From assembly GCA_016222805.1 (NCBI GenBank), contig JACRQG010000030.1, forward strand, positions 5,101-69,100: a stretch of DNA of 64,000 bases, read 5' to 3'. The translations under genes were made by a program, and so were the position numbers. Of this stretch, positions 16,374 to 45,109 are shown in pieces. Each line of letters opens with the position of its first letter. Positions within the stretch are counted from its first letter, which is position 1. A model generated the notes under the pieces. The model was not told the DNA's origin. It made no database searches and was given only the letters and a program-made list of their open reading frames with translations. The stretch is from Verrucomicrobiota bacterium (lineage in GTDB: Bacteria > Verrucomicrobiota > Verrucomicrobiia > Opitutales > Opitutaceae).

Positions 16374-16388
16374 CGCGGGGAGGGTGGT

Positions 16389-28998: not shown

Positions 28999-29580
28999 AT
29001 GGCGCAGGAATCCCAGCCAACCTCGAGGGACTTCGCCGGGTTTTACCGGGCGACCCTCGCTCCCTTGCGCCGGTACCTGGCCGGGTTGGTGGGATGCCGG
29101 ACGGAGGCGCAGGACCTGGCTCACGATGCCTACGCCCGCGTCTACCCGGCCATGTCCAATGGTCGGGTAGAGGAGCCGCAGGCTTTTCTCTACACCACGG
29201 CGCGGCGACTGGCGATCAATCGACTGCGCCACCGGGACCGGGTCTCAACCCAGACGGTGGCGAATGAGTCCCTGGACGCTGAGGCTTCGCGCGAGCCCGG
29301 AGTGACGCAGACCGTGATGGCCCGGCAGGAACTGGCCGACCTTGAGCGCGCCGTGGCGGCGCTGCCACCGGGTTGCCGGGCGGTGCTGCTGCTGCGAAAG
29401 GTCGAGCTCTTGTCGCACAAGGAAATCGCCCGGCGCCTGGGCGTGACCTGTAGCACGGTGGAGAAACAGCAAATGCGGGCGCTGCGGCTGTTGAGCGAAG
29501 CACTCGCGAAAGGACCGGGCGAGCAGCGAAACGCGAACTCCCGCGCCGTGGGGGAACGCGCGGCCCGGGGTACCCCATGA
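28999..29580 (+). CDS. ECF sigma factor, FecI-like
   Basis: This 193-residue sigma-70 family protein has region 2 at about residues 15-80 (RDFAGFYRATLAPLRRYLAG, then EAQDLAHDAYARVY and FLYTTARRLAINRLR) and region 4 at about 115-170 (ALPPGCRAVLLLRKVELL, then HKEIARRLGVTCSTVEKQQM). It should direct RNA polymerase to the promoter of the TonB receptor operon after a signal from FecR. Its stop overlaps the start of the FecR gene in ATGA. This sigma/FecR/receptor order is the standard cell-surface signalling arrangement. Confidence 0.94.
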   Translation: MAQESQPTSRDFAGFYRATLAPLRRYLAGLVGCRTEAQDLAHDAYARVYPAMSNGRVEEPQAFLYTTARRLAINRLRHRDRVSTQTVANESLDAEASREPGVTQTVMARQELADLERAVAALPPGCRAVLLLRKVELLSHKEIARRLGVTCSTVEKQQMRALRLLSEALAKGPGEQRNANSRAVGERAARGTP

Positions 29581-30554
29581 AGTCGCGCGACCAGTCCGAA
29601 CTTCGCGACGAAGCGATCCGCTGGGCAGTCCGCCTGGAAGGGGAGCCGTTGACCGTGGCGGAACAGGGGGAACTCGATCGCTGGCTCGCCGGCGGACCTG
29701 AACCCCGGGCGGAACTCTCCCGCTATTGCCAGTTGTCCGCGGACCTCGAGCGGCACCTGCCGGGGTTGGTGGCCGCCGGGGCCTTTGCAGTGGAAAAAGA
29801 GACGATGCAGGCGCGGCGGCCGTGGTGGCGGCGGCCTGTCTCTGCCATTGGTCTCGCGGCTGCGGCCGCCGCGCTATTCTGGATCGGTTGGCCCCGGCCC
29901 CAGCCGCAGACGGTGTCCACCCCGGCTGCCCACCGGCAGTCGATCGCGCTGGCGGATGGCAGCCGCGCGGATCTCAACGCCCGCACCAGCCTGCAGGTCG
30001 ACTTCAGCGGGAGGGGGCGTCGGTTGGTCCGCCTTGAGCAGGGTGAGGCGCTTTTCCAGGTGGCGAATGATCCTACCAGACCGTTTATCGTGGAGACCCC
30101 CGGGGGGATTGTGCGCGTGACCGGCACGATCTTCAACGTGCGGACCGGCCTCTCCGGTCATCTGGAGGTCACGGTGCTGCAAGGGGCGGTGGAAGTGGTC
30201 CCCTTGGTCGGCCCCGCGGCGGCGTCCGAGACCCTGCGACTTCGGCCGGGGGACCAGTTGACGCTGGAAGCCGGGGCTCTGAGCTACCGGCAGGTGCAGC
30301 CAGAGACGGTGGCGGCCTGGCGAGACGGCTGGGTGGTCTTTGACGCCGCCCCCTTGCGCGAGGTGCTGGGACGATTTGCGGATTTTCACCGGCGTCCGAT
30401 CGCCGTGGCCCCGGAGGTCGCCGAGTTGCGCCTCAGTGGGCGCTTCGGCCTCGATGACTTGGAGGGCTTTCTCTTTGCGGACTTGGAGCGGGCGCTGCCA
30501 GCGGTGCGCGTCGAGCGGCGGCCCGATGGTTCCGCCCATGTCGCCCGTCGTTAA
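29577..30554 (+). CDS. FecR-type anti-sigma/transmembrane signal protein
   Basis: This 325-residue protein has an N-terminal cytoplasmic anti-sigma domain (DEAIRWAVRLEGEPLTVAEQ), one transmembrane helix near residues 86-103 (AIGLAAAAAALFWIGW), a FecR periplasmic domain (about 115-220, SIALADGSRADLNARTSLQV) and a C-terminal secretin/TonB-short-like segment (about 255-320, VFDAAPLREVLGRFADFHRR). It holds the sigma factor inactive until the receptor reports ligand. The start overlaps the sigma gene by four bases. Confidence 0.94.
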   Translation: MKSRDQSELRDEAIRWAVRLEGEPLTVAEQGELDRWLAGGPEPRAELSRYCQLSADLERHLPGLVAAGAFAVEKETMQARRPWWRRPVSAIGLAAAAAALFWIGWPRPQPQTVSTPAAHRQSIALADGSRADLNARTSLQVDFSGRGRRLVRLEQGEALFQVANDPTRPFIVETPGGIVRVTGTIFNVRTGLSGHLEVTVLQGAVEVVPLVGPAAASETLRLRPGDQLTLEAGALSYRQVQPETVAAWRDGWVVFDAAPLREVLGRFADFHRRPIAVAPEVAELRLSGRFGLDDLEGFLFADLERALPAVRVERRPDGSAHVARR

Positions 30555-30593
30555 GGGATCCAGGTTGCGCCGGTACGGGCGAGCGTGGCGGCG

Positions 30594-30601
30594 TTTTTTT
30601 T
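30594..30601 (+). promoter_or_regulatory. Run of eight T after weak GC stem, possible attenuator
   Basis: Eight consecutive T bases lie between fecR and the receptor start. The sequence before it (30565-30593) can form a short CGCC/GGCG stem with a long loop. It could lower read-through into the receptor gene, but the stem is weak. Confidence 0.25.
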
Positions 30602-30653
30602 CTCACGGATGGTGGATTCGGCCGCCGCAGGTGTCCCAGTCCGCGACTACGCC

Positions 30654-33600
30654 ATGATCCTCCCGCCCCTTCGTGATCTGTCCCGGCGTCTTTTTGCCGC
30701 CGCTCTCGCCGCCTGGCTCCCGTCTCTCTCCGCAGCTCCCGTGCGGTTTGAGATTCCCGCGCAGCCCGCCGCCTCCGCCCTGCTGGCCTTTTCCGCGCAA
30801 GCCGGCGCGGAGGTCTTGTTCGCGACCGACCAAGTGTCCGGAAAAAAGGCCAACGCCGTGACCGGCGCCCACGAGCCTGCCGAGGCGATGATCCGGCTGC
30901 TCGCCGACACCGGCCTGGCTGCTTCGCGCGGCGCCAATGGGAAGTGGATCGTGGCGGCGGCTGCGCCGACACCCGTCACGCCCGCCCGGCCGGCACCGGC
31001 TGCGGTGGCCCCCGCGGTGCCGTCGTCCGCTGCCGCCCGGCCTGTGCCGGCCCCGGCCGGCGGCGAGGCGGCCGTGAAGATGGACGTGTTCGAGGTCACC
31101 GGCTCGCACATCAAGCGGCTGGAGGCCGAGGGCCCGCAGCCGGTGGCCGCCTATGCACGGGCCGACATCGATGCGCGCGGCTTCCTCAACACGGGTGATT
31201 TCCTGCAGAGCCTGTCGTTCAACAACGGCAGCGCGAATTCCATCGGGGTTCCGGCGGCCAACCCCGTGAGCAACGTCCCGTACGCCCGCGCCGCCGTGAC
31301 GATGAACCCGCGCGGCCTGGGCGCGAACCGCTTCCTCGTGCTCCTGGATGGCAAGCGACCCTCGAGCTACGGCTTGCCGGACAACCGCGGCGGGTCGGTC
31401 TTCGACTTCAACAGCATCCCGACCGAGGCCATCGGCAGCATCGAGTACCTCAAGGACGGCGCCTCCGCCATTTACGGTTCCGATGCCATCGCCGGCGTGA
31501 TGAACATCAAACTGCGGCCCAGCTTTTCCGGGTTCTCCACCAGTGCGATGCTCGGCAACACCCTGGGGCACGATACGTTCACCCGCACCCTCAGCCTCCT
31601 CGCGGGCGGCACGGCTCCCCGCGGCTCCTACCTGCTGAGCGTGAATTGGTTCAAGCAGAACGGGAACTTCGCGCAGGATTACGACCGCTCCCGGAGCACC
31701 GATTACACGTCGTTCGGGCCGGTCAAGGGCCAGAACAACAACAGCCCGAGCAATTTTCCTTTCAATATCACGCTCACGGCGGCCCAGGCGGCCTCCGCCG
31801 GGTTCAGCACCGGAGCGGGTTTCTATGTGATCAACGGTGGTTCGCCCGTGGCGGCGCCGCAGCGCACGAACTTCGTCCTGGCTGGTGCAAACCAGAATGC
31901 CGCCACGAACGCCAATCGCTACGATTTCGCCCCCACGACGCAGCTTGCGCCGGATCAGGAGAACTTCGGCGTCCTGTTCGGCATGAAGCACGACTTGTCC
32001 GACACGCTGCGGGCCTCCGCCCGGTTGCTGGCCAACAAAAACCTGACCGGCATCGTCTACACGCCGATCTCGATCAACAGCCAGTCGATCCTCAATGCCG
32101 ACGGTTCGTTCCTCACCGTTCCGGCGAACAATCCGTACAACCCGTTTGGATTCGCCCTGAACAATTTTCGCGGGCGGGGAAATTTCGGTCCCACGCGCAC
32201 CTTCAACGTCGAGACCAACGGGCTGACCACGATTCTGGGTCTGGAGGGGGCACTCGGTGCGGACTGGACCTGGTCGGCGAGTTTCATCTACGGCACCAGT
32301 GTTTTTGATCAGGTGGCGGGCAACCAGGTGCGCACGTCCGACATGCAGGCCGCGCTCAACGGCGCGCTGAGCGGCTTCTCCGGACAGTACTTCAATCCAT
32401 TTGGACCGTCGAATCCGGCGCTGGTGAATGCGCTCTTCGTGTCGTCGACGGCCAACTCCAAGAGCACGACGCTCGGCGGTGATTTTTCCGTGGCGGGGCC
32501 CGTGCTCGAAATGCCGGCGCTGTTCGGCGGCCGTTCCCCCGGGCGCGTGGCGCTGGCCGCCGGAGTCGAAAGTCGCAAGGACAACCTCGACAACCATGCC
32601 GATCCCATTCCGTACCTCGTGACGGTGGGCGACCTGCCGTACTCTGGGAACCGCTCGGTGGATTCCGCGTTCGCCGAACTTGATGTGCCGCTCGTCGCCA
32701 AGGCGCTGTCCGCGCAACTGGCGGCGCGTTACGATCGGTACGATACCTTCGGATCGACGGTGAATCCGAAGTTCGCGCTGCTGGCGCAGCCGGCCGGGTT
32801 CCTCAAACTGCGCGCGTCCTATTCGCGTTCTTTCAAGGCGCCCGACATTGGCCAGCTCTACCAGCCGGCGGTCACGACTTTCACCGCGGCTGTCACGGAT
32901 CCGCGGAATCCAACCCTGGGGCTGAACACCTACCCGTTTGTGGCTGCCGGCAATCGCGGACTGCAGCCGGAAAAGGGCCGCGTCTGGTATGGAGGCATCG
33001 TGGTCGATTTGGATCGGTGGGCGAAGGGACTCAGTTTCTCGGCGGACTACTTCGACATCGCGATCACCAACGTGATCACGACCTTCACGACGCCGACGGT
33101 GTTCTTCAATTTCTTCCCCGAGCGGGTGGTGCGGAACAGCGCCGGGGTGATCCAGTACTTCGACGCCAAGACGATCAATGCGGCCGGGTACCAGTGGAAG
33201 GGCCTCGATTTGGGCGCCGACTATCGGCTGCGCGGGACGCGGCTGGGAGACTTCGCCTTCAGCGGTCAGGTGACCTACACGGACTATTTCGCGCTCAATG
33301 CGGGCAGCGGTGCGGGGTACATCAACACCGCCGGGCGGTACAACACCCCGCGCCTGGCCGGATCCTCCCAGATCGGCTGGAAGCGCGGCCCGCTCGCGGC
33401 GTCCCTTGGGACGCAGTTCAAGGGCACCTACCTGATGGATCAGTTTGCCCCGGCTTGGCAGGAGAACGCCCAGTTCCTTTTCAACGGCACCTTCTCCTTC
33501 GATACCCCGTGGCGCACCCGGCTCACGCTCGGCTGCAACAATCTCCTCGATTCCGACCCTCCCAAGAACGGCAAGGCGATCCCGAGCTACGGCTATGACG

Positions 33601-33665
33601 TTGCGACCTACTCTGCCTGGTCGATGGGGCGATTCGTCTATCTCCGGGTAAAAAAGGACTTCTGA
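30654..33665 (+). CDS. TonB-dependent receptor with N-terminal STN signalling domain
   Basis: This 1003-residue outer-membrane receptor has a signal peptide (about residues 1-24), an STN domain (about 25-100, from VRFEIPAQPAASALLAFSAQ), a Pro/Ala-rich linker, a plug starting near VFEVTGSHIKRLEAEGPQPV, and a 22-strand barrel ending in FVYLRVKKDF with the C-terminal phenylalanine needed for barrel assembly. The STN domain talks to FecR, so ligand binding should induce this operon. ATG 30654 is preferred over earlier in-frame starts because it opens the signal peptide. The ligand is unknown, but the downstream genes point to a phosphorylated organic compound. Confidence 0.93.
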   Translation: MILPPLRDLSRRLFAAALAAWLPSLSAAPVRFEIPAQPAASALLAFSAQAGAEVLFATDQVSGKKANAVTGAHEPAEAMIRLLADTGLAASRGANGKWIVAAAAPTPVTPARPAPAAVAPAVPSSAAARPVPAPAGGEAAVKMDVFEVTGSHIKRLEAEGPQPVAAYARADIDARGFLNTGDFLQSLSFNNGSANSIGVPAANPVSNVPYARAAVTMNPRGLGANRFLVLLDGKRPSSYGLPDNRGGSVFDFNSIPTEAIGSIEYLKDGASAIYGSDAIAGVMNIKLRPSFSGFSTSAMLGNTLGHDTFTRTLSLLAGGTAPRGSYLLSVNWFKQNGNFAQDYDRSRSTDYTSFGPVKGQNNNSPSNFPFNITLTAAQAASAGFSTGAGFYVINGGSPVAAPQRTNFVLAGANQNAATNANRYDFAPTTQLAPDQENFGVLFGMKHDLSDTLRASARLLANKNLTGIVYTPISINSQSILNADGSFLTVPANNPYNPFGFALNNFRGRGNFGPTRTFNVETNGLTTILGLEGALGADWTWSASFIYGTSVFDQVAGNQVRTSDMQAALNGALSGFSGQYFNPFGPSNPALVNALFVSSTANSKSTTLGGDFSVAGPVLEMPALFGGRSPGRVALAAGVESRKDNLDNHADPIPYLVTVGDLPYSGNRSVDSAFAELDVPLVAKALSAQLAARYDRYDTFGSTVNPKFALLAQPAGFLKLRASYSRSFKAPDIGQLYQPAVTTFTAAVTDPRNPTLGLNTYPFVAAGNRGLQPEKGRVWYGGIVVDLDRWAKGLSFSADYFDIAITNVITTFTTPTVFFNFFPERVVRNSAGVIQYFDAKTINAAGYQWKGLDLGADYRLRGTRLGDFAFSGQVTYTDYFALNAGSGAGYINTAGRYNTPRLAGSSQIGWKRGPLAASLGTQFKGTYLMDQFAPAWQENAQFLFNGTFSFDTPWRTRLTLGCNNLLDSDPPKNGKAIPSYGYDVATYSAWSMGRFVYLRVKKDF

Positions 33666-33695
33666 GCGCGCCCGGCGCCGGCGACTGTCTATCGC

Positions 33696-34835
33696 ATGAA
33701 TCGGCGATCCGGCCTGCGATGTGGTGCGCGATGGCTCGCACTGCTTCTGGCCGCCACCGCGGCGGGTCGCGCGGACTCCGGCGTCCGCACGCTCCGCCTG
33801 ATCGGGGTCGCCAGCCTGCCGGCGGGCACCCGTTGCGACGGCGAACGGGTCGGCGGACTTTCCGGCCTCGATTACGACGCGGCTCACGACCAGTGGCTCG
33901 CGGTCAGTGACGACAAGGGAGAGTTCGGTCCCGCCCGCTGTTTTGTGATCCGGCTCGCCTACGACGCCGCGGCGGTGGGGGCGGTCGCGGTGACCGGGGT
34001 AATCCGGTTGCAGCCAGCCGGTGGTGATCCCAATGGCGGCGCTCCGGTACCGGGCGGCCGGGTGCAGGGTGAGGTTCCGGACCTGGAGTCGATCCGGATC
34101 GATCCGCGCGATGGCAGTCTGTGGGTGGCGACCGAAGGCGAGGCGAAGTGGGGCCATCCACCGATCGTGCGGCAGCTGGAGCGCGATGGTCGGCATCGGC
34201 GGGATCTCCCGCTTCCTTCGGTGTTGGCCCATGATCCCTCGCGGCGCACCGGACCCCGTCCGAATCTGTCCTTTGAGGGCCTGGCCTTCTGCCCTGCCGG
34301 GGACGCGGTGTGGCTCGCCCTGGAGGCTCCCCTCTGGCAGGACGGCGATGTGGCGGGCGCAGGAAAGGGAGCGGTGGTCCGGCTGACGTGCCTGGAGCGC
34401 GACGGTCGAATGGGGCGACAGGTGGCCTATCGACTGGAACCGCGGCCTCTGGTCCCCGCGCCGCGTCGACTGGCGGACAACGGTGTCGCCGAAGTGCTGG
34501 CGGTGAGTGACCGCGAACTGCTCGTGCTGGAGCGCGGCGGCGCGCAGCAGGCCGACGGGACCTGGCGCTTCGCGGCGCGTCTCTTTCTCGCCAGTGTCGC
34601 GTCAGCGAGTGAGGTAGGGGGCATGGCCGCGTTGCCGGCCGCCAGTTTCACGCCGGCGAGCAAGCGACTGCTGCTGGAACTGGGGACGGCTGCCGGAGAG
34701 CGGGTGGACAACCTCGAGGGCCTGGCATGGGGCCGGGTGCTCGCCAACGGCCGTCGCAGCCTCGTGCTGGTTTCCGACGACAACTTTTCCGTTTCGCAGC
34801 AGACCCAGTTCTGGGTCTTCGAAGTTCAACCCTGA
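33696..34835 (+). CDS. Secreted phytase-like/esterase-like propeller protein
   Basis: This 379-residue protein has a signal peptide (GARWLALLLAATAAGRADS, cleavage near residue 28) and a phytase-like/esterase-like propeller domain. Family signatures are VGGLSGLDYDAAHDQWLAVS, PDLESIRIDPRDGSLWVATE, NLSFEGLAFCPAGDAVWLAL and VDNLEGLAWGRVLANGRRSL. The acidic residues in these loops are probable metal or substrate ligands. Activity in this family is poorly characterised; names refer to phytase-like fold and esterase-like activity. It starts 30 bases after the receptor and 14 bases before the NADAR gene, so it is very likely in the same operon. Confidence 0.85.
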   Translation: MNRRSGLRCGARWLALLLAATAAGRADSGVRTLRLIGVASLPAGTRCDGERVGGLSGLDYDAAHDQWLAVSDDKGEFGPARCFVIRLAYDAAAVGAVAVTGVIRLQPAGGDPNGGAPVPGGRVQGEVPDLESIRIDPRDGSLWVATEGEAKWGHPPIVRQLERDGRHRRDLPLPSVLAHDPSRRTGPRPNLSFEGLAFCPAGDAVWLALEAPLWQDGDVAGAGKGAVVRLTCLERDGRMGRQVAYRLEPRPLVPAPRRLADNGVAEVLAVSDRELLVLERGGAQQADGTWRFAARLFLASVASASEVGGMAALPAASFTPASKRLLLELGTAAGERVDNLEGLAWGRVLANGRRSLVLVSDDNFSVSQQTQFWVFEVQP

Positions 34836-34849
34836 TTCCCTCCGCGCCC

Positions 34850-35413
34850 ATGAAATTCACTCACGTTCTTCTCTTGCTTCTTTCTGTCGGCGCCAGCGTG
34901 GCGTCCGAGACGCCGCCGGCCAAGAAACCGAAATGGGACGACACCTTTGACGGCGTCGTCCACAACGAGAAGAAGATCGGCGGGTTCGTCGGTGAGTACC
35001 GTTGGTTGAGCAACTTTTTCCCGTGCCGGGTGGAATGGGAAGGTCGGATCTACGGCTCGTCGGAGGCGGCGTATCAGTCGGGCAAATATCCGCCGGCGGA
35101 GCGGGAGGTCTTCACGACGCTCGATCCCGATGCCGCGAAGAAACTCTCGCGAACGAAGCCTTACGATACCGCCGCGTGGGAGCAGCGGAAAGAGCGGACG
35201 ATGCGGGAGGTGCTGTGGGCGAAGTTTTCGCAACACCCGGATCTGGCGGCGAAGTTGCGGGCCACGGGCGATCGGTTGCTGGAGGAAACCAATTGGTGGG
35301 GGGACGAGATTTGGGGTGTGTTCAAGGGCAAGGGGCGGAACCTGCTCGGGCAGATCCTGATGGACATTCGCGAGCGATTGAAGACCGAGGCGCCAGCCAG
35401 CCGGAAGCCGTGA
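34850..35413 (+). CDS. NADAR-domain N-glycosidase-like protein with signal peptide
   Basis: This 187-residue protein has a clear signal peptide (MKFTHVLLLLLSVGASVAS, cleavage around residues 18-19) followed by a complete NADAR domain (about 45-178). Family motifs are YRWLSNFFPCRVEWEGRIYG (50-69), SSEAAYQSGKYP (70-81), TNWWGDEIWGV (147-157) and GKGRNLLGQILMDIRERL (160-177). Known NADAR proteins (YbiA/RibX type) cleave the N-glycosidic bond of riboflavin intermediates, releasing ribose 5-phosphate, or remove ADP-ribose from guanine in DNA. They work in the cytoplasm. The signal peptide puts this copy in the periplasm, which is unusual. It stands between a secreted phytase-like gene and an organophosphate-transporter gene. 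Confidence 0.88.
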   Translation: MKFTHVLLLLLSVGASVASETPPAKKPKWDDTFDGVVHNEKKIGGFVGEYRWLSNFFPCRVEWEGRIYGSSEAAYQSGKYPPAEREVFTTLDPDAAKKLSRTKPYDTAAWEQRKERTMREVLWAKFSQHPDLAAKLRATGDRLLEETNWWGDEIWGVFKGKGRNLLGQILMDIRERLKTEAPASRKP

Positions 35414-35456
35414 GGCCGCGCTTTTCCGGCCAAGCGTGGCCGGCCGCTCCGCCGCC

Positions 35457-36806
35457 ATGAGCTTCCTCCGTCAGATTTCGTCCGCCCTGCGGGCGCAGCC
35501 GCCGGCCCCGCCGGTGACTGATCCCGCGGAAGTGGACCGACTTTACCGCTACTGGCGCGTGCGCGTGATGTACGCGATGACGACGGGGTACGCGTTGTTC
35601 TATTGCGTGAGGAAGAACCTCTCCATGGCGGCGAAGGCGATCACGGACGAATTCCAGTTCAGCAACACGCAGTGGGGGGTGGTCTTGAGCGTCTCGACGA
35701 TCGTGTATGCCCTATCGAAGTTCCTCAGCGGCGTCGTCGGGGATCGCGCCAACCCGCGGTACCTATTGTCGATTGGCCTGCTACTGTCGGCGGTTGTGAA
35801 CTTGGTCTTCGGCCTCGGCGCCAGCCTGGCCTTCTTTATCGTCTTCTGGGCGCTGAACAACCTCTTCCAGGGAACGGGGGTTCCGCCGTGCGTGCGGCTG
35901 CTCACGAGTTGGTACAGCCCGACCGAGATCGGCCGCGCCTGGGGGATCTGGAACGCCTCGCACCAGATCGGGGGCGCCGTCATCGCCGTCTGGGCCGCTT
36001 GGCTCGTGAGCCACTATGGTTGGCGCTCGGCGTTCTGGGTGCCGGGCATCGTGGGAGTCGTGGGCGCGATTTGGCTGCACAACCGGCTCACCGACTCGCC
36101 GGAGTCGAAGGGGCTGCCCGCGGTCGAGACCTACCGCGAAGGCACGGTCGCCGGCACGGTGGCGGACACGACCGCTCCGTTCTGGGGTGTCTTCCGAAGA
36201 TACATTCTCTCGAACCCGTGGGTCTGGATCGTGAGTATCGCGAACTTCTTCGTCTACGTGGTCCGCATCGGCATCCTGGACTGGGCACCCAAGTACCTGC
36301 AGGAGGCCAAGGGCTTCAATTTGAAGGAGGCGGGGTATTCGCTCTCCGGATTCGAGGTGGCCGGAATCTTCGGCGCCTACGCCTCGGGCTGGTTGTCGGA
36401 CCGGGTGTTTCGCGGGCGGCGGGGTCCGGTTTCGGTCGCCTTCATGCTCTTCCTCATCGTCTTCGTGGTCGCCCTGTTTTTCGTGCCGCGCGGAAGCCTG
36501 GGGACGATGAGTGCGGTCTTCATTGCGATTGGCTTCTTTGTCTACGGTCCGCAGATGCTGATCGCGGTGGCGGCCGCCGATTTTGCGACGAAGGCGGCCG
36601 CCTCTAGCGCCGTCGGACTAACCGGGCTCTTTGGCTACCTCGGCGCCACCCTCTGCGGCGTGGCGACGGGCTTGATCGCTGACCACCTCGGCTGGGATGG
36701 GGTCCTGTGGTTCTACGGCCTGGCGGCGGTGGCCGGCGCGGCCCTGCTCGCCACCACATGGTCCAAGCGTCCGGGCCATGATGCCCGGGCGCCTGCCGCC
36801 CGCTGA
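35457..36806 (+). CDS. MFS organophosphate transporter, GlpT/UhpC-like
   Basis: This 449-residue protein has about 12 transmembrane helices and GlpT/UhpT/UhpC-family features: YYCVRKN-like GYALFYCVRKNLSMAAKAIT after the first helix, LSKFLSGVVGDRANPRYLLS in loop 2-3, and GWRSAFWVPGIVGVVGAIWL. Family members exchange glycerol-3-phosphate, hexose-phosphate or other sugar phosphates for phosphate. UhpC-like proteins can be sensors instead. It starts 43 bases after the NADAR gene and is probably the last gene of the receptor operon. An AT-rich 25-base palindrome follows the stop by 10 bases. Confidence 0.9.
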   Translation: MSFLRQISSALRAQPPAPPVTDPAEVDRLYRYWRVRVMYAMTTGYALFYCVRKNLSMAAKAITDEFQFSNTQWGVVLSVSTIVYALSKFLSGVVGDRANPRYLLSIGLLLSAVVNLVFGLGASLAFFIVFWALNNLFQGTGVPPCVRLLTSWYSPTEIGRAWGIWNASHQIGGAVIAVWAAWLVSHYGWRSAFWVPGIVGVVGAIWLHNRLTDSPESKGLPAVETYREGTVAGTVADTTAPFWGVFRRYILSNPWVWIVSIANFFVYVVRIGILDWAPKYLQEAKGFNLKEAGYSLSGFEVAGIFGAYASGWLSDRVFRGRRGPVSVAFMLFLIVFVVALFFVPRGSLGTMSAVFIAIGFFVYGPQMLIAVAAADFATKAAASSAVGLTGLFGYLGATLCGVATGLIADHLGWDGVLWFYGLAAVAGAALLATTWSKRPGHDARAPAAR

Positions 36807-36841: not shown

Positions 36842-37082
36842 TACTTCGACGAGAGGAGGGGGCGGAGGCGCGGTCGATCTTGGGGAATGGGCTACCGCGG
36901 ATTGCGCCCGTCCTCTGGTCACCGGCCTGATTTCTCGTGAGGCGTCCGATGTTTCGAATCCTGAAGATCGCGATTGCGTGGGGCGGCGATTCTCGTTGGC
37001 TCATCGCAACCCCGTGCGCTCCAGCCGCTGCGATCGAACTGCCTGCGCTTCACGCGTATCGGAGCCATTTTCTGCGCTCCCT

Positions 37083-40000
37083 ATGTCCTCGCCCCTCCCG
37101 GTCTCCTCCGTCCTTGTCCGGCGCGCCCTGCGCGCCACGGCCACCTGCCTGGCCGTCGCGTTGTCGATCGCCTTCCTTGCCCCGCACCTCCGGGCCCAGT
37201 CGCCCGCCACCGGCGGAATCACCGGGCGGGTGCAAAACGAGGCCACCGGCCAGTATCTCAACAACGCCAGCGTGGTCGTGAAGGGCACGGACCTCGTCAC
37301 CTTCACCGACGAGACCGGCACCTTCGTCTTCGCTCGCGTGCCAGCCGGACCGGTGGTCCTCGAGGTGGTCTACTCGGGCCTCGATCCGCAGCAGGTGCCG
37401 TTGCAGGTGGCCGCCGGCCAGCGCGTCGAGCGCGATGTCTTCCTCAGCAGTCGCGAGCGTTATGGCGCGGCGTCGGCCGCGGGCCCGGGCGTGGTGAAGC
37501 TCGACCCCTTCGTGCTCTCCTCGTCGAAGCTTACCGAAGGCGAGGCGCTGGCGACGAACGAGCAGCGCTTTGCCCGCAATATCAAGAATGTCGTCGCCAC
37601 GGATGCGTTTGGCGACGTGACCGAGGGCAACGTGGCCGAGTTCATGAAGTTCATGCCCGGCGTGACGATCGAGTACTCTGACGCCTCGCCCAACGCCGTC
37701 GCGGTGCGCGGCTTCGATCCCAACATGACCGCCGTGGCCGCCGACGGCGCGCAGCTCGCCAATGCTTCCGGCAGCGCCGCCAACCGCGGCTTCCTCTTCA
37801 CCCAGGTCTCGATCAACAACGTCTCCCGGATCGAGGTCACGAAGGTGCCCACGCCCGCCTCCCCGGCGGATGGCATTTCCGGCACCGTGAACATGATCAG
37901 CAAGAGCTCCTTCGAGCGGAGCCGCATGCAGTTCAACTATCGCGTCTTCCTCTCCGCGAGCAGCGACGGCATGCAACTGAAGCGGCAGCCTTTCCCCTTC
38001 GACACGCGCGAGTATCGCGTGCACCCCGGCTTCGACTTCGACCTCACCCTGCCGCTCACGAAGAACTTCGGCATCGTCTTCACCGGCCTGCGCTCCAAGC
38101 AGTGGAACGAGCAGAACATCTCCTCGATGACCTGGAATGCCACCGCGGCCGGCACCGGCGCGACGCCGGCGACTCCGTTCCTCCAGAGTCACGCCATCAT
38201 CGACGCCCCGAAGTGGTACACGCGCGACTCGACGAGCCTCAAGGCCGACTGGCGCATCACGCGCCACTCCGTCCTCTCCTTCGGCGGCCAGGCGAGCTAC
38301 TACCGGGACAAGAACGGCAACGTCACCCGCACCGCCACCGCCGGCACCAACGCAACCCCGAGCGTGGCCGGGGGCGTGCCGCTGAGCTACAACGGCGAGC
38401 GGACAAACGGCGCCACCGGCCGCGGCGGCGTGACCTTCAGCGGGAACTTCCTGCACATCGACGCGCGCACGCTCGGTCTCAATTCCCGCTACCGCTACGA
38501 CGACGGGACCTGGCTGCTCGACTCCGCCGTCAGCGCCTCGACTTCCAAGACCTGGCGCCGGTACGAGGAGAAAGGCAGCTTCCAGTCGCTGACCACGGCG
38601 CTTCTCGTGCCCGTGCGCGTCACCTTCGAGGGCATCACCGCCGTGCGGCCGACGACGACGCGCGCCTTCGACAACTCCAACCGCGAGATCGACCTGTACG
38701 ACATCAACAACTACCGCCTCAACACGGCCGCGCAGACCGACTACCGGGACCACCACGAGGACGTCTATGGCTACAACGTGGACCTGCGTCGCGGGTTCAG
38801 CGTTTTCGAGATCCCGGGCAACGTCCAGATCGGTGGCCGTTACCGTTCGCAGGATCGCGATCGGCGCTCCTACAGCCGCTCGTACACGTACACGCCGCCG
38901 GACGGCAACCTCTCGCCGGCCCCGTTTGTCGGGCAGGTCTACAAGAACCGGCCGAACTACTTCGGCTTCGACAACATCCCGTGGCTTTCGAACAACCGCG
39001 CGGTGGACGCCTGGCGGAAGAACCCGGCGCTCTTCACCATGACGCCCGCGCAGATCGTCGCGGAGCAGCAGAGCCGCATCGTCGGTTCCGAGCAGATTCT
39101 CGAGACCGTCACCGGGCTCTACGCGCAGACCGAGGTGCGCTTCTTCCACAATCGCCTCACGCTGCTGACCGGCGTGCGTTACGAGAAGACCCACGACAAG
39201 GGCGTGGGGCCGCTCTACGAGCCGGCCAATGTCTGGCAGCGTACCGCCAGCGGGGCGTTTGTACGCAACGCCGCGGGCCAGCGCATCCGCCGGCCGGAGG
39301 CGGGCGCCGCCGGCTCCCTCGAGGAACTGCGTCTCACGCGCTTCGAGCGCGCCAACCTCGGCAACCGCGCCTACGACGGCTACTACCCGAGCGCCCACCT
39401 CAACTACCAGGCGACGGAGAAGCTCCTGTTCCGCGCGGCCTACGCACGGACCTACGGCCGGCCGGATTTCGCCAGCATCGTCCCCAACGCCACCATCACG
39501 GAGGCGGATCTCCCGGAGGGCGCCGATCCGTCGGCCATCCCGGGCAACATCTCGGTGCGCAACACCGGACTCAAGCCGTGGACGGCGGAGAACTACGATC
39601 TCAGCGCGGAATACTACACGGCGAGCGGCGGGCTCATCACCGGCGGCGTCTTCCGCAAGGACATCACGGATTTCTTCGGCACCCTGCAGACGCGCGCGAC
39701 CGCCGAGATTCTCGACGAGTTCGGACTGGATCAGCGTTACGTCGGCTGGTTCCTCGACACGACGATCAACTCGGGCGACGCGCGGGTGTCGGGCGTGGAG
39801 CTTAACGTGCGGCAGGCGTTGGCACCCCTCGGCGGTATCGGCCGGTATTTCAGTGTCTTTGCCAACGCGACCAAGCTGAAGCTCGAGGGCAGCCGCAGCG
39901 CGGCGTTCACGCGCTTCGTGCCGACGAGCGCCAACTGGGGCGTCACCTTCACCCGGCGCCCCCTCACGCTGATGGCCAACTGGCATCATCGCGGTGAGCA

Positions 40001-40247
40001 GGATCGCGGGGCCTCGACCGGTCGCGGCCCACTGGCAAAGGTGTACCAGAACTCGCGCACCACGCTCGATCTCAGCCTGAGCTGGCAGTTTCGGCGCACG
40101 CTTACCGTCTTCGCCAACGCGCGCAACGTGACCAACGTGTGGTTCAACCAGTCGAGCTACCAGTTCGACACGCCGGTTTACGCCCGCCGCAGTTCGACCA
40201 ACTCCTACGGCGCCCAGTGGGCCTTCGGCCTGAAGGGTACTTTCTAG
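37083..40247 (+). CDS. TonB-dependent receptor with CarboxypepD_reg-like N-terminus
   Basis: This 1054-residue outer-membrane receptor begins MSSPLPVSSVLVRRALRATA with a signal peptide ending LRAQ near residue 39. A carboxypeptidase-regulatory-like beta domain follows (about 42-118, ITGRVQNEATGQYLNNASVV), then a plug (about 130-260; EGNVAEFMKFMPGVTIEYSD, AVRGFDPNMTAVAADGAQLA) and a barrel ending WAFGLKGTF. This architecture is typical of glycan or oligomer receptors in Opitutaceae and Bacteroidetes. It has no adjacent sigma/FecR pair and no SusD-like partner. ATG 37083 is chosen because the open extension from 36978 lacks signal-peptide features. The 36817-36841 palindrome may be its operator. 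Confidence 0.92.
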   Translation: MSSPLPVSSVLVRRALRATATCLAVALSIAFLAPHLRAQSPATGGITGRVQNEATGQYLNNASVVVKGTDLVTFTDETGTFVFARVPAGPVVLEVVYSGLDPQQVPLQVAAGQRVERDVFLSSRERYGAASAAGPGVVKLDPFVLSSSKLTEGEALATNEQRFARNIKNVVATDAFGDVTEGNVAEFMKFMPGVTIEYSDASPNAVAVRGFDPNMTAVAADGAQLANASGSAANRGFLFTQVSINNVSRIEVTKVPTPASPADGISGTVNMISKSSFERSRMQFNYRVFLSASSDGMQLKRQPFPFDTREYRVHPGFDFDLTLPLTKNFGIVFTGLRSKQWNEQNISSMTWNATAAGTGATPATPFLQSHAIIDAPKWYTRDSTSLKADWRITRHSVLSFGGQASYYRDKNGNVTRTATAGTNATPSVAGGVPLSYNGERTNGATGRGGVTFSGNFLHIDARTLGLNSRYRYDDGTWLLDSAVSASTSKTWRRYEEKGSFQSLTTALLVPVRVTFEGITAVRPTTTRAFDNSNREIDLYDINNYRLNTAAQTDYRDHHEDVYGYNVDLRRGFSVFEIPGNVQIGGRYRSQDRDRRSYSRSYTYTPPDGNLSPAPFVGQVYKNRPNYFGFDNIPWLSNNRAVDAWRKNPALFTMTPAQIVAEQQSRIVGSEQILETVTGLYAQTEVRFFHNRLTLLTGVRYEKTHDKGVGPLYEPANVWQRTASGAFVRNAAGQRIRRPEAGAAGSLEELRLTRFERANLGNRAYDGYYPSAHLNYQATEKLLFRAAYARTYGRPDFASIVPNATITEADLPEGADPSAIPGNISVRNTGLKPWTAENYDLSAEYYTASGGLITGGVFRKDITDFFGTLQTRATAEILDEFGLDQRYVGWFLDTTINSGDARVSGVELNVRQALAPLGGIGRYFSVFANATKLKLEGSRSAAFTRFVPTSANWGVTFTRRPLTLMANWHHRGEQDRGASTGRGPLAKVYQNSRTTLDLSLSWQFRRTLTVFANARNVTNVWFNQSSYQFDTPVYARRSSTNSYGAQWAFGLKGTF

Positions 40248-40428: not shown

Positions 40429-41202
40429 TCACTTCAGGCGCACTTCCGCGATGATCGGGAGGTGATCGGAGGCCTCCGTGTGCAGAACCTGCATCGAAAT
40501 CGGTTCCACGCTGGCCGGAGTGACGAAGAGGTAGTCGATTCGGCGGTTCGGCTTCTTCACGGGAATGGTGAATCCGTCTCCCTGGCCGACCGCTTCCCAG
40601 GCATCACGGAGGAAGGCTTTGACGCCTTCATGGGTGGGCGTGCCGGGGCGGGTGTTGAAGTCTCCGACCAGAAGGACCGGGCGCCGGCCGGCGGCGGCGA
40701 CGATTTGCTGGATTTCGGCGACGTTGCTCAGGCGCTCGGCGTCGTCGGGACGATAGTCGAGGTGAGTGTTGAGAAACAGGATCTCGCGGCCGTGAACGTC
40801 GAGCACGAGCTGCTGGATCCCGCGCTGCTCCCCAGGACGGAGCATCCGGTAATGGGTGTTCTTTGCCGAACGGATCGGGAAACGGGAGAGCACGGCGTTG
40901 CCGTATTCTCCGCCTTGATAGGCGATGTTCTTCTCGAAGTAGACGGTCAGGCCGGTGAGCCGGGCGAGTTCGGCGGGCAGGTCGCGGCCCTGGGTGCGCT
41001 GGACGCCGCGGTCGACTTCCTGGAGGCCCACGATGTCCGCCCGGGCCTCGGTGATCACCAGGGCAATGCGTGCCAGGTCGACTTTGCCGTCGAGACCCTC
41101 GCCGTGGTGGATGTTGTAGGACATCACCCGGAGAGTGATCGGCGCCGGAGCGGCGCCGGCGGCGGCAGTGAGGAGCAAGGCGCAGAAAAGCGAGCGGAGC
41201 AT
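40429..41202 (-). CDS. Secreted endonuclease/exonuclease/phosphatase-family protein
   Basis: This 257-residue protein has a signal peptide (MLRSLFCALLLTAAAGAAPA) and a complete EEP domain. Catalytic motifs are RVMSYNIHHGEG (metal-binding Asn), VGLQEVDRGV (Glu), LNTHLDYRPDD (His, Asp), LLVGDFNTRPGTPTHEGV (Asp, Asn), RRIDYLFV and a terminal EASDHLPIIAEV (Asp-His). Such enzymes cut phosphodiester or phosphomonoester bonds with Mg2+; substrates range from DNA to inositol phosphates and sphingomyelin. The short form and secretion fit an extracellular or periplasmic phosphodiesterase. It follows a TonB receptor gene on the same strand by 81 bases, so the two may act together in nutrient use. Confidence 0.9.
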   Translation of the reverse strand: MLRSLFCALLLTAAAGAAPAPITLRVMSYNIHHGEGLDGKVDLARIALVITEARADIVGLQEVDRGVQRTQGRDLPAELARLTGLTVYFEKNIAYQGGEYGNAVLSRFPIRSAKNTHYRMLRPGEQRGIQQLVLDVHGREILFLNTHLDYRPDDAERLSNVAEIQQIVAAAGRRPVLLVGDFNTRPGTPTHEGVKAFLRDAWEAVGQGDGFTIPVKKPNRRIDYLFVTPASVEPISMQVLHTEASDHLPIIAEVRLK

Positions 41203-41283
41203 TGCGCCACGCCAACCGGAAACGGCGCCGGGGTAAAGCCGGGGATGCGGGTGGGGGAACGCGGCGCGGAGGCGGTCGTCGCC

Positions 41284-44200
41284 TCAGAGGCGCGTCGTGA
41301 GCGTGAGGTTGTAGCTGATCGGCTGCTTGAGGGCGTAGTAGCGCGGCACCGTCTCGCGGGCGGGGGAGGTGTAGTCGTTGTTCAGCGGCCGCATCACGTG
41401 GGCGTTCTGCGCGGTCGAGGAATAGGCCGGCCCGCGATCGTTCAGCAGGTTGTTGATCACGAGATTGGCCTGGAGTTCGCGGCGGTTCTTGAAGCGCCAG
41501 GTGTAGGCCAGGGTCGCCGTGACGATGACGTAGTCGTCGGGCGTGTAGGCCGGAGTGTAGGCATCCTTGGTCGGATCGTCGATCGCCACGCGCGGGTTGT
41601 CCGGATTGGGAATGGTGTCTTCCACCTTCGACCAGAAGATCTGCTTCCCGCGGTAGCGCGCGCCGGCGCCGAGGCGCAGGCCTTTCAGGCGTCCCGATTG
41701 AAGGGTGTAGTCTCCGAAGACATTGGCGACGGGTTGATCCTGCTGCAGGCGTTTTCCGTCCACGATGTTCCGGCGGTACGAGTAGATGTTGTTGTACGCG
41801 TTCATCGCGTTGGTCGCATCGGACGAGCGCTGGTTGATGGGGATTGATTCGTCGATGCGGGCGATGTTGTCGGGTCCGATGATCACGCCGGCATCGTTGG
41901 CGATCTGCTTGAAGAGGGCGCCGTTCTTGTCGATGTAGGCGCGCACGTCGGGATTGGCGTTGGCCTCGTAGAGGCGGGGGAATCCCAGGTTGCCGGTGAG
42001 GCGGAAAGCCCGGGATGGGTTGAAGGTGATTTCGATTTCGTAGCCGTCGCCGGTGCGGGTGCGGGTGTCGCGGTACTGGTTGGGCAGGCGGCCGATGCCG
42101 CGGATGTTGCGGCCGGTGGCGCTCGTGTCGCCGACGACGTTGGAGTCGTAGAGCGCGTTGAAGTAGGCCGGGCCGTCCTGGGGGATGACGTTGTTCGCCT
42201 CCTCGGTCCGGTAGTAGACGAAGTTGAGGTTGAGCTTGTTCTCGAACAGCTCCATCCGCACCGAGTAGTCGGTTCCCTTGGCGACGGTCGGCTCGAGGGA
42301 GCGGCCGTCGATGCGCACGATCGAGCCCGGCGGGTTGAAGGTCTCGGAAAAGTTGATCGCGGGGTTGAACCACGAGGCGACGTGGAGGACGGTGCCGACG
42401 CTGTGGGTCACCTGCCGGCCGCGGACGGGCGGCGGGTTGAAGTCGTCCTTGAAGCGGTCGTTGGCGTACTGGGGCAGACGGGCTCCGACGGAGTCGCGCG
42501 GTCGGATGTCCGCTTCCTGGGTGGGGCCGACGGGTCGCCCTTGCGCATCTTTCGGTGTGTAGGCGAGCGTGGCGTAGTCGGCCGGGGCGGGCGGGCGCAG
42601 GATGCGGTAGGTGGCGGGCCAGTCGGCCGGGTAGTCGCCCTGGTTGATCTGCTGCTCGGACTTGAAGTTGAACGTGTCGCGCCGGACGGCGCCGAGCACG
42701 ACCCAGCGGCCGCGGAGGAGCTTGGCGTTCAGGGAGGCGAGGGCGTAGTTGAACTTGCTCGTGCTGATGTTCTGGGTGTCGCGCCGGTCGGCCTCGATGG
42801 CCCAGACCGGCCGGATGGTCTCGGGCGCGTTGGTGTTGGGGTCGAAATACGTGATGGGCTGGCCGGCGATGTCCGGGGACGGGCGGCTGGTGGTGTTCCA
42901 GTAACGCCGGATGCGAATCCGCTGGTTGCTGTAGGCCCAGAGGTGCTGGTCGGCGCCGCGGGCGACGCTGAGGTAGCGGTGGTCGCTGGTGTTCTGGCTG
43001 TTGTTGGAGCCGCCGAGGGAATTGAAGGTGAAGTGGCCGAAACGCGTCGGCCAGACGTAGGCGACCGCGGATCGGGCGTTGTTCTCGGAGAAGGTGCGGT
43101 AGCCGCGCATGTACTGGCCATCCCCATACGGCACGAGGAAGTTGGGATTGGGGGCGCCGTTGGGCAGCACGCGGTTGATGTCGATGTAGACATTGGGGAG
43201 GTCGCGGTTGGGTTCGCCGTTGGTGAGGGCCCAGGAACGGTTGAGGTCGCCGGCGATCTCGAAATGCAGGCGGCCCCAGCGCTGGTGGTAGGTGAGCTGG
43301 AGGTCGCGAAACCGCTGTCGGAGGATCGGCAGGTCGGGTGAGAGGGTGAACTCCTCGGTGGGCGTGCGGAAGGAGGAGAAGCGCTCCGCCAGCGCAAAGC
43401 GGTCGGCGGGGACGTTGATCTCGTAGAGCAGGTTGGCCCCGGCGGTGTTGAAGGTGACGTTGCCGGCGTTGGCCCAGGTGTAGCCCGCGATGGGGGTCTG
43501 GGCGGTGTTGCCGCCGGCCACGGTGATCGGATCGTTCTGGTAGTTGAAGACGATGCCCGGGGCGGCGAAGGGGAGGTAGATGAAGTAGTTCGCGCCGCGC
43601 CGATTCACGCCGATGGCATTGGCGTTGGAGGGCAGGGTCGCGAGGGCGCGCGGGGCGCTGTAGGTCGTGCCGTTCCAGCCGGAGAAACGGTCGTTGAGGA
43701 AGGTCACCGCGGACTGGCGGGAGTTGGCGCCGTATTCCCCCTCGAGGCGGATCTCGGCATCGCGCCAGGGCTTGTACGTGCCGGTGAGAAAGACCGCCTC
43801 GCGCTTGTCGAAGTCCTTGAGGCGCCAGCCGCCGGCGTCGCCCCAGAGCCCCGCGGCACGGACGGCAAAGCGCTCGTTGAGCGGCTGGTTCACGTCAAAG
43901 GTGCTGCGGAAGTTCTCCCACGAGCCGACGGCGAACTGGAGCTGGCGGATCGGGCGGTTCGTCTGGGCGCGCTTGGTCGTCGCGGAACTGATCCCGCCGA
44001 GGGATCCGTTGCCGAAGAGGATGGCGTTGGGGCCGCGGCCGAAGTCGTAGCGCTCGAGGTTGTAGGAGTCGCCGCTGTTGAATTGTGGAAAAAAATTCCG
44101 CTGCGGGCGTCCGCCGCCGGCGCCGCGCACGGTGTACTGGATCGGGTTGAAGAAGAAATTCTGCTGGCCGTTGTCGACGGCCACGGTGCTGGACGTGGTC

Positions 44201-44505
44201 CATTCGGCGGCGGACTGCAGGTCGGTGAGGCCGAGCGCGTCGATGAAATCGCGCGTGATGACCGAGTACGCCACCGGGGTGTCGCGCAGGTCGGAGGCGA
44301 GGCGCCCGCCGGCGAGCGAGCTCGCGGCGGCGAAGCCGGTGTCGCGGTCCGAGCTCACTTCGAACGGAGAGAGCCGGACCGCGTCATCCGTCACCACCGA
44401 CGTTCGGGTCGGGGCCGCGGGTGGCGGAGGCAGGGTCTGGGCCGGAAGGCTGACGCCGGCGAGGCCAAGCAACAGCAGGAGGGCGCGCGAAGTGGGAAGG
44501 GGCAT
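41284..44505 (-). CDS. TonB-dependent receptor
   Basis: This 1073-residue outer-membrane receptor starts MPLPTSRALLLLLGLAGVSL with a signal peptide ending LPAQ. The TonB-box-like segment is VRLSPFEVSSDRDTGF. The plug (about 50-180) includes DLRDTPVAYSVITRDFIDAL, QYTVRGAGGGRPQRNFFPQF and DFGRGPNAILFGNGSLGGIS. The barrel ends with ISYNLTLTTRL; the last residue is Leu rather than Phe, an acceptable variation. It has no STN or regulatory-like N-terminal domain. The open frame extends 65 codons upstream of ATG 44505 without signal-peptide features. It is first in a probable operon with the secreted EEP enzyme and is divergent from the RidA operon. Confidence 0.92.
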   Translation of the reverse strand: MPLPTSRALLLLLGLAGVSLPAQTLPPPPAAPTRTSVVTDDAVRLSPFEVSSDRDTGFAAASSLAGGRLASDLRDTPVAYSVITRDFIDALGLTDLQSAAEWTTSSTVAVDNGQQNFFFNPIQYTVRGAGGGRPQRNFFPQFNSGDSYNLERYDFGRGPNAILFGNGSLGGISSATTKRAQTNRPIRQLQFAVGSWENFRSTFDVNQPLNERFAVRAAGLWGDAGGWRLKDFDKREAVFLTGTYKPWRDAEIRLEGEYGANSRQSAVTFLNDRFSGWNGTTYSAPRALATLPSNANAIGVNRRGANYFIYLPFAAPGIVFNYQNDPITVAGGNTAQTPIAGYTWANAGNVTFNTAGANLLYEINVPADRFALAERFSSFRTPTEEFTLSPDLPILRQRFRDLQLTYHQRWGRLHFEIAGDLNRSWALTNGEPNRDLPNVYIDINRVLPNGAPNPNFLVPYGDGQYMRGYRTFSENNARSAVAYVWPTRFGHFTFNSLGGSNNSQNTSDHRYLSVARGADQHLWAYSNQRIRIRRYWNTTSRPSPDIAGQPITYFDPNTNAPETIRPVWAIEADRRDTQNISTSKFNYALASLNAKLLRGRWVVLGAVRRDTFNFKSEQQINQGDYPADWPATYRILRPPAPADYATLAYTPKDAQGRPVGPTQEADIRPRDSVGARLPQYANDRFKDDFNPPPVRGRQVTHSVGTVLHVASWFNPAINFSETFNPPGSIVRIDGRSLEPTVAKGTDYSVRMELFENKLNLNFVYYRTEEANNVIPQDGPAYFNALYDSNVVGDTSATGRNIRGIGRLPNQYRDTRTRTGDGYEIEITFNPSRAFRLTGNLGFPRLYEANANPDVRAYIDKNGALFKQIANDAGVIIGPDNIARIDESIPINQRSSDATNAMNAYNNIYSYRRNIVDGKRLQQDQPVANVFGDYTLQSGRLKGLRLGAGARYRGKQIFWSKVEDTIPNPDNPRVAIDDPTKDAYTPAYTPDDYVIVTATLAYTWRFKNRRELQANLVINNLLNDRGPAYSSTAQNAHVMRPLNNDYTSPARETVPRYYALKQPISYNLTLTTRL

Positions 44506-44644
44506 GCCGTGGGCGGGGTGTCGCGGGAGTGTGGGTGAAGGCGGAAGGGCGTCTATGCGAAAACGTACGGCCGGGGGGCAGGCGAAACAGGGTTGTTTGC
44601 GCGGCGTTTTTTCCCTAGCAACCAGCCTGCTTTCCTCGATCCCC

Positions 44645-45109
44645 ATGGATGCCGAATCCCGCCTGGTTGAACTTCGCCTCCAACTTCCGCCTGCGCCCAA
44701 GCCGGGCGGCGTTTACCAGCCGGTAGTCGTCGTCAACCAGATCGCGTATGTGTCGGGCCACGGTCCCCTGCGGCCGGACGGGACGCTGGTCTCCGGTCGT
44801 GTGGGGGCGGATCTCACTCTCGACGAGGGCCGGGCGGCGGCGCGGCAAACCGGCCTGGCGATTCTCGCCACGCTGCGCGCGCACCTCGGGAGCCTCAACC
44901 GCGTGAAGCGCCTGGTGAAGTCGCTCGGGATGGTGAACGCGACGCCGGAGTTCGCGCAGCATCCGCAGGTGATCAATGGCTACAGTGAGCTGATGGCGGA
45001 GGTCTTCGGTGCGGAAGCGGGAGTCGGCGCACGCAGCGCGGTCGGGATGGGATCGCTGCCGGGGAACATCGCGGTCGAGATTGAGGCAATCTTCGAGTTG
45101 CACGCGTGA
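44645..45109 (+). CDS. RidA-family protein
   Basis: This 154-residue protein belongs to the RidA/YjgF superfamily, which removes reactive enamine/imine intermediates made by PLP enzymes. Family segments are VVVVNQIAYVSGHGPLRPDG, DLTLDEGRAAARQTGLAILA, NRVKRLVKSLGMVNATPEF and ARSAVGMGSLPGNIAVEIEA. It is about 25 residues longer than E. coli RidA, like the other bacterial Rid subgroups, and the arginine of the RidA active site is not in its usual S-R-x-x-V context. Its stop overlaps the GTG start of the GntP gene (GTGA), so the two are co-translated. It likely protects amino-acid breakdown carried out by the following genes. Confidence 0.88.
   Translation: MDAESRLVELRLQLPPAPKPGGVYQPVVVVNQIAYVSGHGPLRPDGTLVSGRVGADLTLDEGRAAARQTGLAILATLRAHLGSLNRVKRLVKSLGMVNATPEFAQHPQVINGYSELMAEVFGAEAGVGARSAVGMGSLPGNIAVEIEAIFELHA

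Follow-up and report, generated by a model that had tools for sequence, protein, structure and literature searches.

A putative surface-signalled uptake locus of Opitutaceae that pairs an exported-looking NADAR protein with an organophosphate antiporter-like transporter

The 64,000-nucleotide stretch analysed here (the window), taken from a contig of a 7.9-Mb verrucomicrobial draft genome (Opitutaceae; JACRQG010000030.1), contains six intact open reading frames (ORFs) that span positions 28999–36806, all on the + strand. They encode, in this order, an extracytoplasmic function (ECF) sigma factor, a FecR-type regulator, an STN-type TonB receptor, a PF13449 protein (here PhyL), a NADAR protein and a transporter of the major facilitator superfamily (MFS). 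This NADAR, the only one found in its genome, begins with a signal-peptide-like stretch, as do the NADARs of seven related loci. We suggest that the six genes may form a surface-regulated salvage operon, in which an N-linked phosphoribosyl compound would be imported, its base removed in the periplasm and the remaining sugar phosphate carried inward, a reading whose chances we put at about half. It draws on gene content and order, their recurrence, export-like signals, active-site residues and second copies of other N-glycosidase genes, all taken from sequence. The features of the locus are as follows.

28999..29580, + strand: ECF sigma factor with a FecI-like role (Pfam Sigma70_r2 and r4_2); overlaps the FecR gene by 4 bases
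29577..30554, + strand: FecR-type anti-sigma regulator (PF04773, 76.9 bits, cut-off 24; DUF4880)
30654..33665, + strand: TonB-dependent receptor with an N-terminal STN-like signalling domain (PF00593 and PF07715 over cut-off)
33696..34835, + strand: PhyL, exported-looking PF13449 protein (Pfam 234.6 bits, cut-off 27.6; 2.9e-69)
34850..34903, + strand: signal-peptide-like N-terminus of the NADAR, predicted cut after residue 18
34850..35413, + strand: exported-looking NADAR (PF08719), 187 aa from ATG 34850 (89.2 bits, cut-off 35.1)
35457..36806, + strand: MFS transporter of the organophosphate:phosphate antiporter group (GlpT/UhpC-like), from ATG 35457 (assigned by Pfam, NCBIfam and alignment to GlpT)

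The ORFs contain no internal stops and the gaps 3' of the receptor are 30, 14 and 43 bases, in agreement with the original prediction, made from the sequence without database searches, of six co-directional genes with post-receptor gaps of 14–43 bases. The receptor frame is open from GTG 30585, the likelier start being ATG 30654, and its STN domain (PF07660) scored 26.9 bits, just below the cut-off of 28.4. By gene content, and with the STN domain slightly below cut-off, the tandem ECF, FecR and receptor genes have the arrangement of Fec-type surface signalling. Fec-type TonB uptake systems have the ECF, FecR and STN receptor genes in the same order; where those systems bring an iron ABC transporter, however, the genes that follow here encode a member of an N-glycosidase family and an organophosphate antiporter. 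A promoter scan with the sigma-70 consensus, to which ECF promoters do not conform, found none in the locus, and a repeat scan gave only short scattered matches.

The recurrence of the locus was studied in 252 genomes of the family with a query made of aligned orthologues, membership of the exported clade being set at a minimum of 265 bits. NADARs of any kind occurred in 14 of these genomes, and the clade in 8; the other six matches (five at 46–75 bits and one at 27.7) were left out of the clade count as ordinary NADARs. An earlier search with a single protein had given matches in 10 of 200 genomes, and 14 of 387 genomes in a sample of the phylum contained a NADAR. The eight clade loci are those of the window, L012 (genome G129), L013 (G043), L014 (G213), L015 (G217), L016 (G160), L019 (G037) and L048 (G241), loci L002–L006 and L025–L032 having been dropped before counting as repeats of the same genomes; a scan of genome contigs placed the close relatives (7 loci) in Opitutae, Opitutaceae and Verrucomicrobia assemblies. 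A TonB receptor and the MFS gene adjoin the NADAR gene in all eight and PhyL in seven. L012 has its receptor broken into two frames, and its MFS gene is cut short by the contig end. The receptors of the seven other loci are 45–82% identical to that of the window, and an ECF-FecR pair is present in all six loci with enough upstream sequence. The PhyL and NADAR genes overlap by 4 bases in L012, L014, L015 and L016. A tree built on 27 NADAR domains places the eight clade members together with moderate support (80/95), so that a single origin is possible. The Fisher values obtained (5e-12 and 6e-6) assume independent genomes, an assumption that does not hold here.

Export of the clade NADARs, as predicted from sequence, is well supported. 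Starting at ATG 34850, the window protein begins MKFTHVLLLLLSVGASVASE, which is signal-peptide-like in a home-made test, not SignalP, that looks for an uncharged hydrophobic stretch followed by a small-x-small site. The same test found export-like starts in all eight clade NADARs, the protein of G037, a fusion, being scored through the signal of its PhyL part and that of G241 from a TTG start, and in none of the 17 other verrucomicrobial NADAR loci (16 genomes; in L043 and L046 the domain match is incomplete). With a Ruminococcus NADAR (L017, negative) and a Simkaniaceae one (L018, ambiguous) added, the count for non-clade NADARs is 1 of 19. Mean identity is 35% in the N-terminal part and 78% in the mature part (15 pairs of 6 proteins), as expected for a signal peptide preceding a conserved enzyme. 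In G037, PhyL (N-terminal, PF13449 226.9 bits) and NADAR (C-terminal, 82.5 bits) form a single protein of 527 residues. As to the start codon, the mechanically called ORF opens at ATG 34727, within PhyL, and 34850 is the first ATG past the PhyL stop. The original prediction had staked itself on homologous NADARs with signal peptides and on a gene order not unique to one genome; the clade proved export-like throughout and the order recurs in eight genomes. In the Simkaniaceae protein (L018 9500–10492, 330 residues), for which the signal-peptide test was ambiguous, the NADAR domain (64.6 bits) is C-terminal and is preceded by a long region that includes hydrophobic segments.

The NADAR domain itself begins at about residue 49. 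PMC11543638 describes contacts of a Phytophthora NADAR with ADP-ribose through E43, K50, R79, W89, R93, E125, D130 and W133. These residues were mapped by alignment to chain 8bau, whose numbering exceeds this one by two and which has the same residue type at each of the eight positions. Seven of the eight are identical in the window protein (E72, K79, R101, W110, E146, D152 and W155), the sole change being K114 in place of R93, and the active-site motifs are retained in all eight clade members. The YbiA branch is marked by glutamate at the position of E125 (PMC11125620, PMC11543638). The clade shares the PF08719 domain and the glutamate-type active site of YbiA/RibX-type and phage NADARs; it differs in its export-like start, which L017 and the other verrucomicrobial NADARs lack. 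The nearest NADARs found are that of Ruminococcus L017 (51%) and that of Bacillus phage SPbetaL3 (46%); the best matches among 499 phage records and 58 plasmid records were at 46% and 45%, and these relatives, among the matches listed, align only from query residue 35–52 onward. Two functional models stayed below cut-off, the riboflavin-intermediate N-glycosidase model TIGR02464 with 67.6 bits (equivalog cut-off 73.7) and the anti-phage NADAR model NF053876 with 48.8 bits (equivalog cut-off 240), and there was a weak match to PADLOC PDC-M42C (46.8 bits). No ADP-ribosyltransferase adjoins the NADAR gene, which is flanked in the window by the PF13449 and MFS genes, and none was recognised in the other operons. 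An AlphaFold2 model of the NADAR, with 6 sequences as input, reached a mean pLDDT of 50.9 and was set aside as poor.

PhyL has a signal-peptide-like N-terminus in the same test and was modelled by AlphaFold2 as a beta-propeller (mean pLDDT 82.5). The best VIA-align match among those listed was the C-terminal domain of YjiK (3qqz; Z 21.0, root-mean-square deviation 2.9, 226 aligned), with paraoxonases at Z 13.1–14.0, and the 50 Foldseek matches listed were generic propellers with TM of at most 0.45. We therefore dropped the phytase reading of PhyL, since "phytase-like", the term used in the original prediction, is only the name of the Pfam family and the fold is nearest to YjiK among the matches listed; phytase structures do not appear among those matches, which excludes nothing. 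Searched for separately (E up to 1e-20), close PhyL proteins were found in 8 of the 252 genomes, namely seven of the NADAR genomes and G182. The PhyL gene of G182 (L114 210–3683) stands alone, close to what by eye is a transposase-like fragment, and the genes 3' of it resemble by eye those 3' of the MFS gene in L049, so that G182 may have lost the other operon genes. In G241 a different protein (L048 5618–6682), with a signal-peptide-like start, is encoded between NADAR and MFS; by eye it has the look of an S1/P1-type metalloenzyme, its Pfam match reaching only E 0.05 (13.9 of 29.5 bits), and a sequence search of the PDB gave nothing useful for it. Also in G241, 3' of the MFS gene (L048 8166–9098), there is a DUF6282 protein (204.4 bits) that by eye looks exported.

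The MFS protein has its closest models in UhpC, PgtP and GlpT but fell short of the NCBIfam cut-offs for UhpC (396 of 564 bits), GlpT (326 of 632–748), UhpT (229 of 497) and PgtP (254 of 750), as well as that of TIGR00881 (370 bits, cut-off 408). Its residues R52, K53, H169 and R270 align with the phosphate-site residues R45, K46, H165 and R269 of GlpT. Orthologues at the level of at least 60% occur in 18 genomes, 8 of them with the NADAR. In one of the others, G006 (L090 6641–12738), a TonB receptor and the MFS orthologue are followed by a PF01663 phosphodiesterase/nucleotide pyrophosphatase; for the other nine, BLAST with the window proteins against the fetched stretches, one contig being too short, found no adjoining receptor. 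L015 encodes a further MFS protein of this group 4.5 kb downstream (16290–17693), near TonB receptor genes; its identity to the MFS protein of the window is 40%.

Several of the related operons have acquired a further N-glycosidase. A gene for AMP nucleosidase (Amn) lies between NADAR and MFS in L012, L013, L014 and L016, that is, in four of the eight operons. The Amn proteins of L013 and L014 score 409 and 418 bits with NF005500 (equivalog cut-off 264), those of L012 and L016 are 90% identical to the L014 copy, the nearest solved chain is 1ybf, named AMP nucleosidase, and the home-made test detected no signal peptide in the two copies tested. Amn matches were found in 196 of the 252 genomes, but because only six genomes, including the four operon carriers, have two, the operon gene is a second copy; the window's genome has one Amn, on another contig. 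In G037 a LOG-family protein is encoded 10 bases 3' of MFS (TIGR00730 181.4 bits, cut-off 96.35; CtkRMPhLog equivalog 151.8 bits, below the cut-off of 300). It has a signal-peptide-like start, other LOGs among the matches listed aligning only from residue 28–42 onward, and its PGGVGTLDE fits the LOG motif PGGxGTxxE. LOG matches occur in 182 of the 252 genomes, with two copies in only three at that threshold, and the operon gene of G037 is a second copy. LOG (PF03641) and Amn (PF01048) are unrelated families, yet each splits a nucleotide into its base and ribose 5-phosphate. Thus, in five of the eight operons (four with Amn and one with LOG), a type of enzyme that releases ribose 5-phosphate has been gained beside the N-glycosidase-family NADAR.

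From these features we infer the substrate of the operon, catalysis in the periplasm, the action of PhyL and the cargo of the MFS protein. A compound resembling a nucleotide or ADP-ribose would enter the periplasm through the TonB receptor, itself under ECF/FecR/STN control, and there PhyL or, in another genome, a different exported protein would presumably open a phosphoester or pyrophosphate bond. Next, NADAR, likewise exported, would hydrolyse the N-glycosidic bond, releasing the base and leaving the phosphate on the sugar. The antiporter would take in this sugar phosphate, in the simplest case ribose 5-phosphate, in exchange for phosphate. With the added cytoplasmic Amn or exported LOG, the relatives would obtain ribose 5-phosphate by cleaving AMP or a similar nucleotide, and in the Amn-carrying genomes the cargo of the MFS protein may be AMP, or both. 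The original prediction of a compound imported, cut and its phospho-sugar carried inward is thus supported in part, with the PhyL-NADAR fusion and the extra nucleotide N-glycosidases of five operons added to it, though not in its riboflavin part (see below).

A more specific scheme is salvage of ADP-ribose, which we consider tentative and on the whole unlikely. Its starting material would be ADP-ribosylated guanine in nucleotides or nucleic-acid fragments, from which NADAR would free ADP-ribose; PhyL, the S1/P1-like protein or a nucleotide pyrophosphatase would split this into AMP and ribose 5-phosphate, the AMP would be cut by the added Amn or exported LOG, and both sugars would be gained via the antiporter. 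Since ADP-ribose would give AMP as well as ribose 5-phosphate, the scheme suits the added AMP N-glycosidases, and the known NADAR substrates, which are riboflavin intermediates and ADP-ribosylated guanine, seem to share a ribose on an exocyclic nitrogen. NADAR, Amn and LOG fit naturally into their steps. For PhyL and the S1/P1-like protein the steps are assumptions, and the scheme gives none to the DUF6282 protein of G241.

Several observations weigh against the salvage operon proposed here. The clade is narrow, no match above 70 bits being found outside the family among the 387 phylum genomes, and the ECF and FecR proteins of L014, L019 and L048 are just 32–38% identical to those of the window. 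As NADAR served to locate the loci, its presence in all eight is by construction and proves nothing, and the independent evidence comes from the separate searches with other operon proteins; among the genomes with a close MFS, 10 of 18 lack the NADAR. The propeller modelled for PhyL shows no function, and the operon of G241 is without PhyL. Neither Amn nor LOG is present in the operons of the window, L015 and L048, and where Amn is present it is cytoplasmic, so that the MFS protein there may carry AMP or something else. As for export, one of the cytoplasmic controls, homoserine dehydrogenase, scored weakly in the home-made test (1.77, compared with 2.49–3.32 for exported-looking proteins), and a start at the in-frame ATG 34727 would leave no signal peptide at the front of the NADAR.

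Other explanations of the locus were weighed against the same evidence. General scavenging of organic phosphorus, with PhyL as a phosphoesterase, the MFS protein carrying hexose or glycerol phosphate and NADAR clearing a minor side product, would agree with the PF13449 name, if the substrate of PhyL is phytate-like or a phosphodiester, and with a UhpC/GlpT-like MFS that mostly occurs without NADAR; however, seven of the eight close-PhyL genomes have the exported NADAR, one as a fusion, the additional Amn and LOG copies suggest nucleotides, and the fold of PhyL is nearest to YjiK among the matches listed, so that we regard this explanation as unlikely. It is rather improbable that the operon imports a specific nucleotide-bearing natural product (antibiotic, siderophore-like or cofactor-like), which NADAR would open or disarm in the periplasm. 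ECF/FecR/STN receptors usually serve specific ligands and the distribution is narrow (8 of 252), but the operons showed no recognisable gene for biosynthesis or resistance, and an antiporter of the sugar-phosphate group together with second copies of AMP N-glycosidases better fits nutrient use.

The biochemistry of known NADARs points to two further explanations. Those tested so far take ADP-ribose off guanine in DNA and RNA, according to PMC11543638, PMC11125620 and PMC11833690, and an exported NADAR might do so as an immunity or antitoxin protein, in line with the weak PADLOC match. Such a role in defence or detoxification is nevertheless quite improbable, since no ADP-ribosyltransferase was recognised among the operon genes, the NF053876 score is far below its cut-off, the cell's nucleic acids lie outside the periplasm and the neighbours are uptake genes. 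The DarT1-NADAR and YarT-YbiA toxin-antitoxin pairs, as described in PMC11543638 and PMC11125620, have the same NADAR fold and catalytic residues; here, by contrast, no transferase partner was recognised, the protein is exported-looking and its neighbours are uptake genes. Activity of YbiA on riboflavin intermediates, reported in PMC11543638, would favour salvage of these compounds specifically, one of the two substrate types named in the original prediction. This we consider very improbable, as TIGR02464 stayed below its cut-off and no FMN riboswitch was found at Rfam gathering thresholds in the window or the seven related loci, in which the sole Rfam match was Acido-Lenti-1 (L013 18863–18907, 37.9 bits, gathering score 37). 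Riboflavin intermediates are, moreover, unstable outside cells. Equally hard to credit is a NADAR that acts in the cytoplasm, with the hydrophobic stretch at its N-terminus serving as a membrane anchor or having arisen by chance: the evidence for export is drawn from sequence and an in-frame ATG lies upstream at 34727, but the export-like starts separate the clade (8 of 8) from other verrucomicrobial loci (0 of 17), the G037 fusion places NADAR behind a secreted-looking domain, and the N-terminus evolves fast yet keeps its character.

Upstream of the locus there are genes that, with translations read by eye, are homoserine dehydrogenase-, aspartate kinase- and threonine synthase-like. A second TonB receptor gene (36978–40247) begins 171 bases past the MFS gene; the protein has a carboxypeptidase-regulatory N-terminus and is TIGR01782-like (309.8 of 310 bits), and the gene is a possible member of the operon. 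On the minus strand and convergent with the locus (40429–44700), a TonB receptor gene is followed by one for an endonuclease/exonuclease/phosphatase-family protein (PF03372) with, by eye, a signal-peptide-like start.

The proposed salvage operon may be compared with two known routes for the use of such compounds. A ribose-scavenging locus of Bacteroides thetaiotaomicron reportedly combines TonB-type uptake with enzymes active on nucleosides and ADP-ribose; to our knowledge, it uses other enzyme families and has neither NADAR nor an organophosphate antiporter. In users of extracellular DNA, 5'-nucleotidases outside the inner membrane act first and remove the phosphate, as stated in PMC8289736. 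Those bacteria and the present ones would both draw on outside nucleotides, but the operon proposed here seems to detach the base and leave the phosphate in place, which would suit an organophosphate antiporter.

Full-text searches of open-licence papers gave no report of an exported NADAR, and the roles of NADARs outside toxin-antitoxin operons are called unclear in PMC11125620. NADARs have been described as intracellular, and an exported-looking clade within an uptake operon gives them a testable nutritional role. The arrangement suggests a logic of salvage in which the base is taken off outside the inner membrane and the phosphate retained, the reverse of the 5'-nucleotidase route. If salvage of ADP-ribose should prove true, products of ADP-ribosylation would serve these bacteria as food, and we know of no earlier NADAR with such a role in nutrition.

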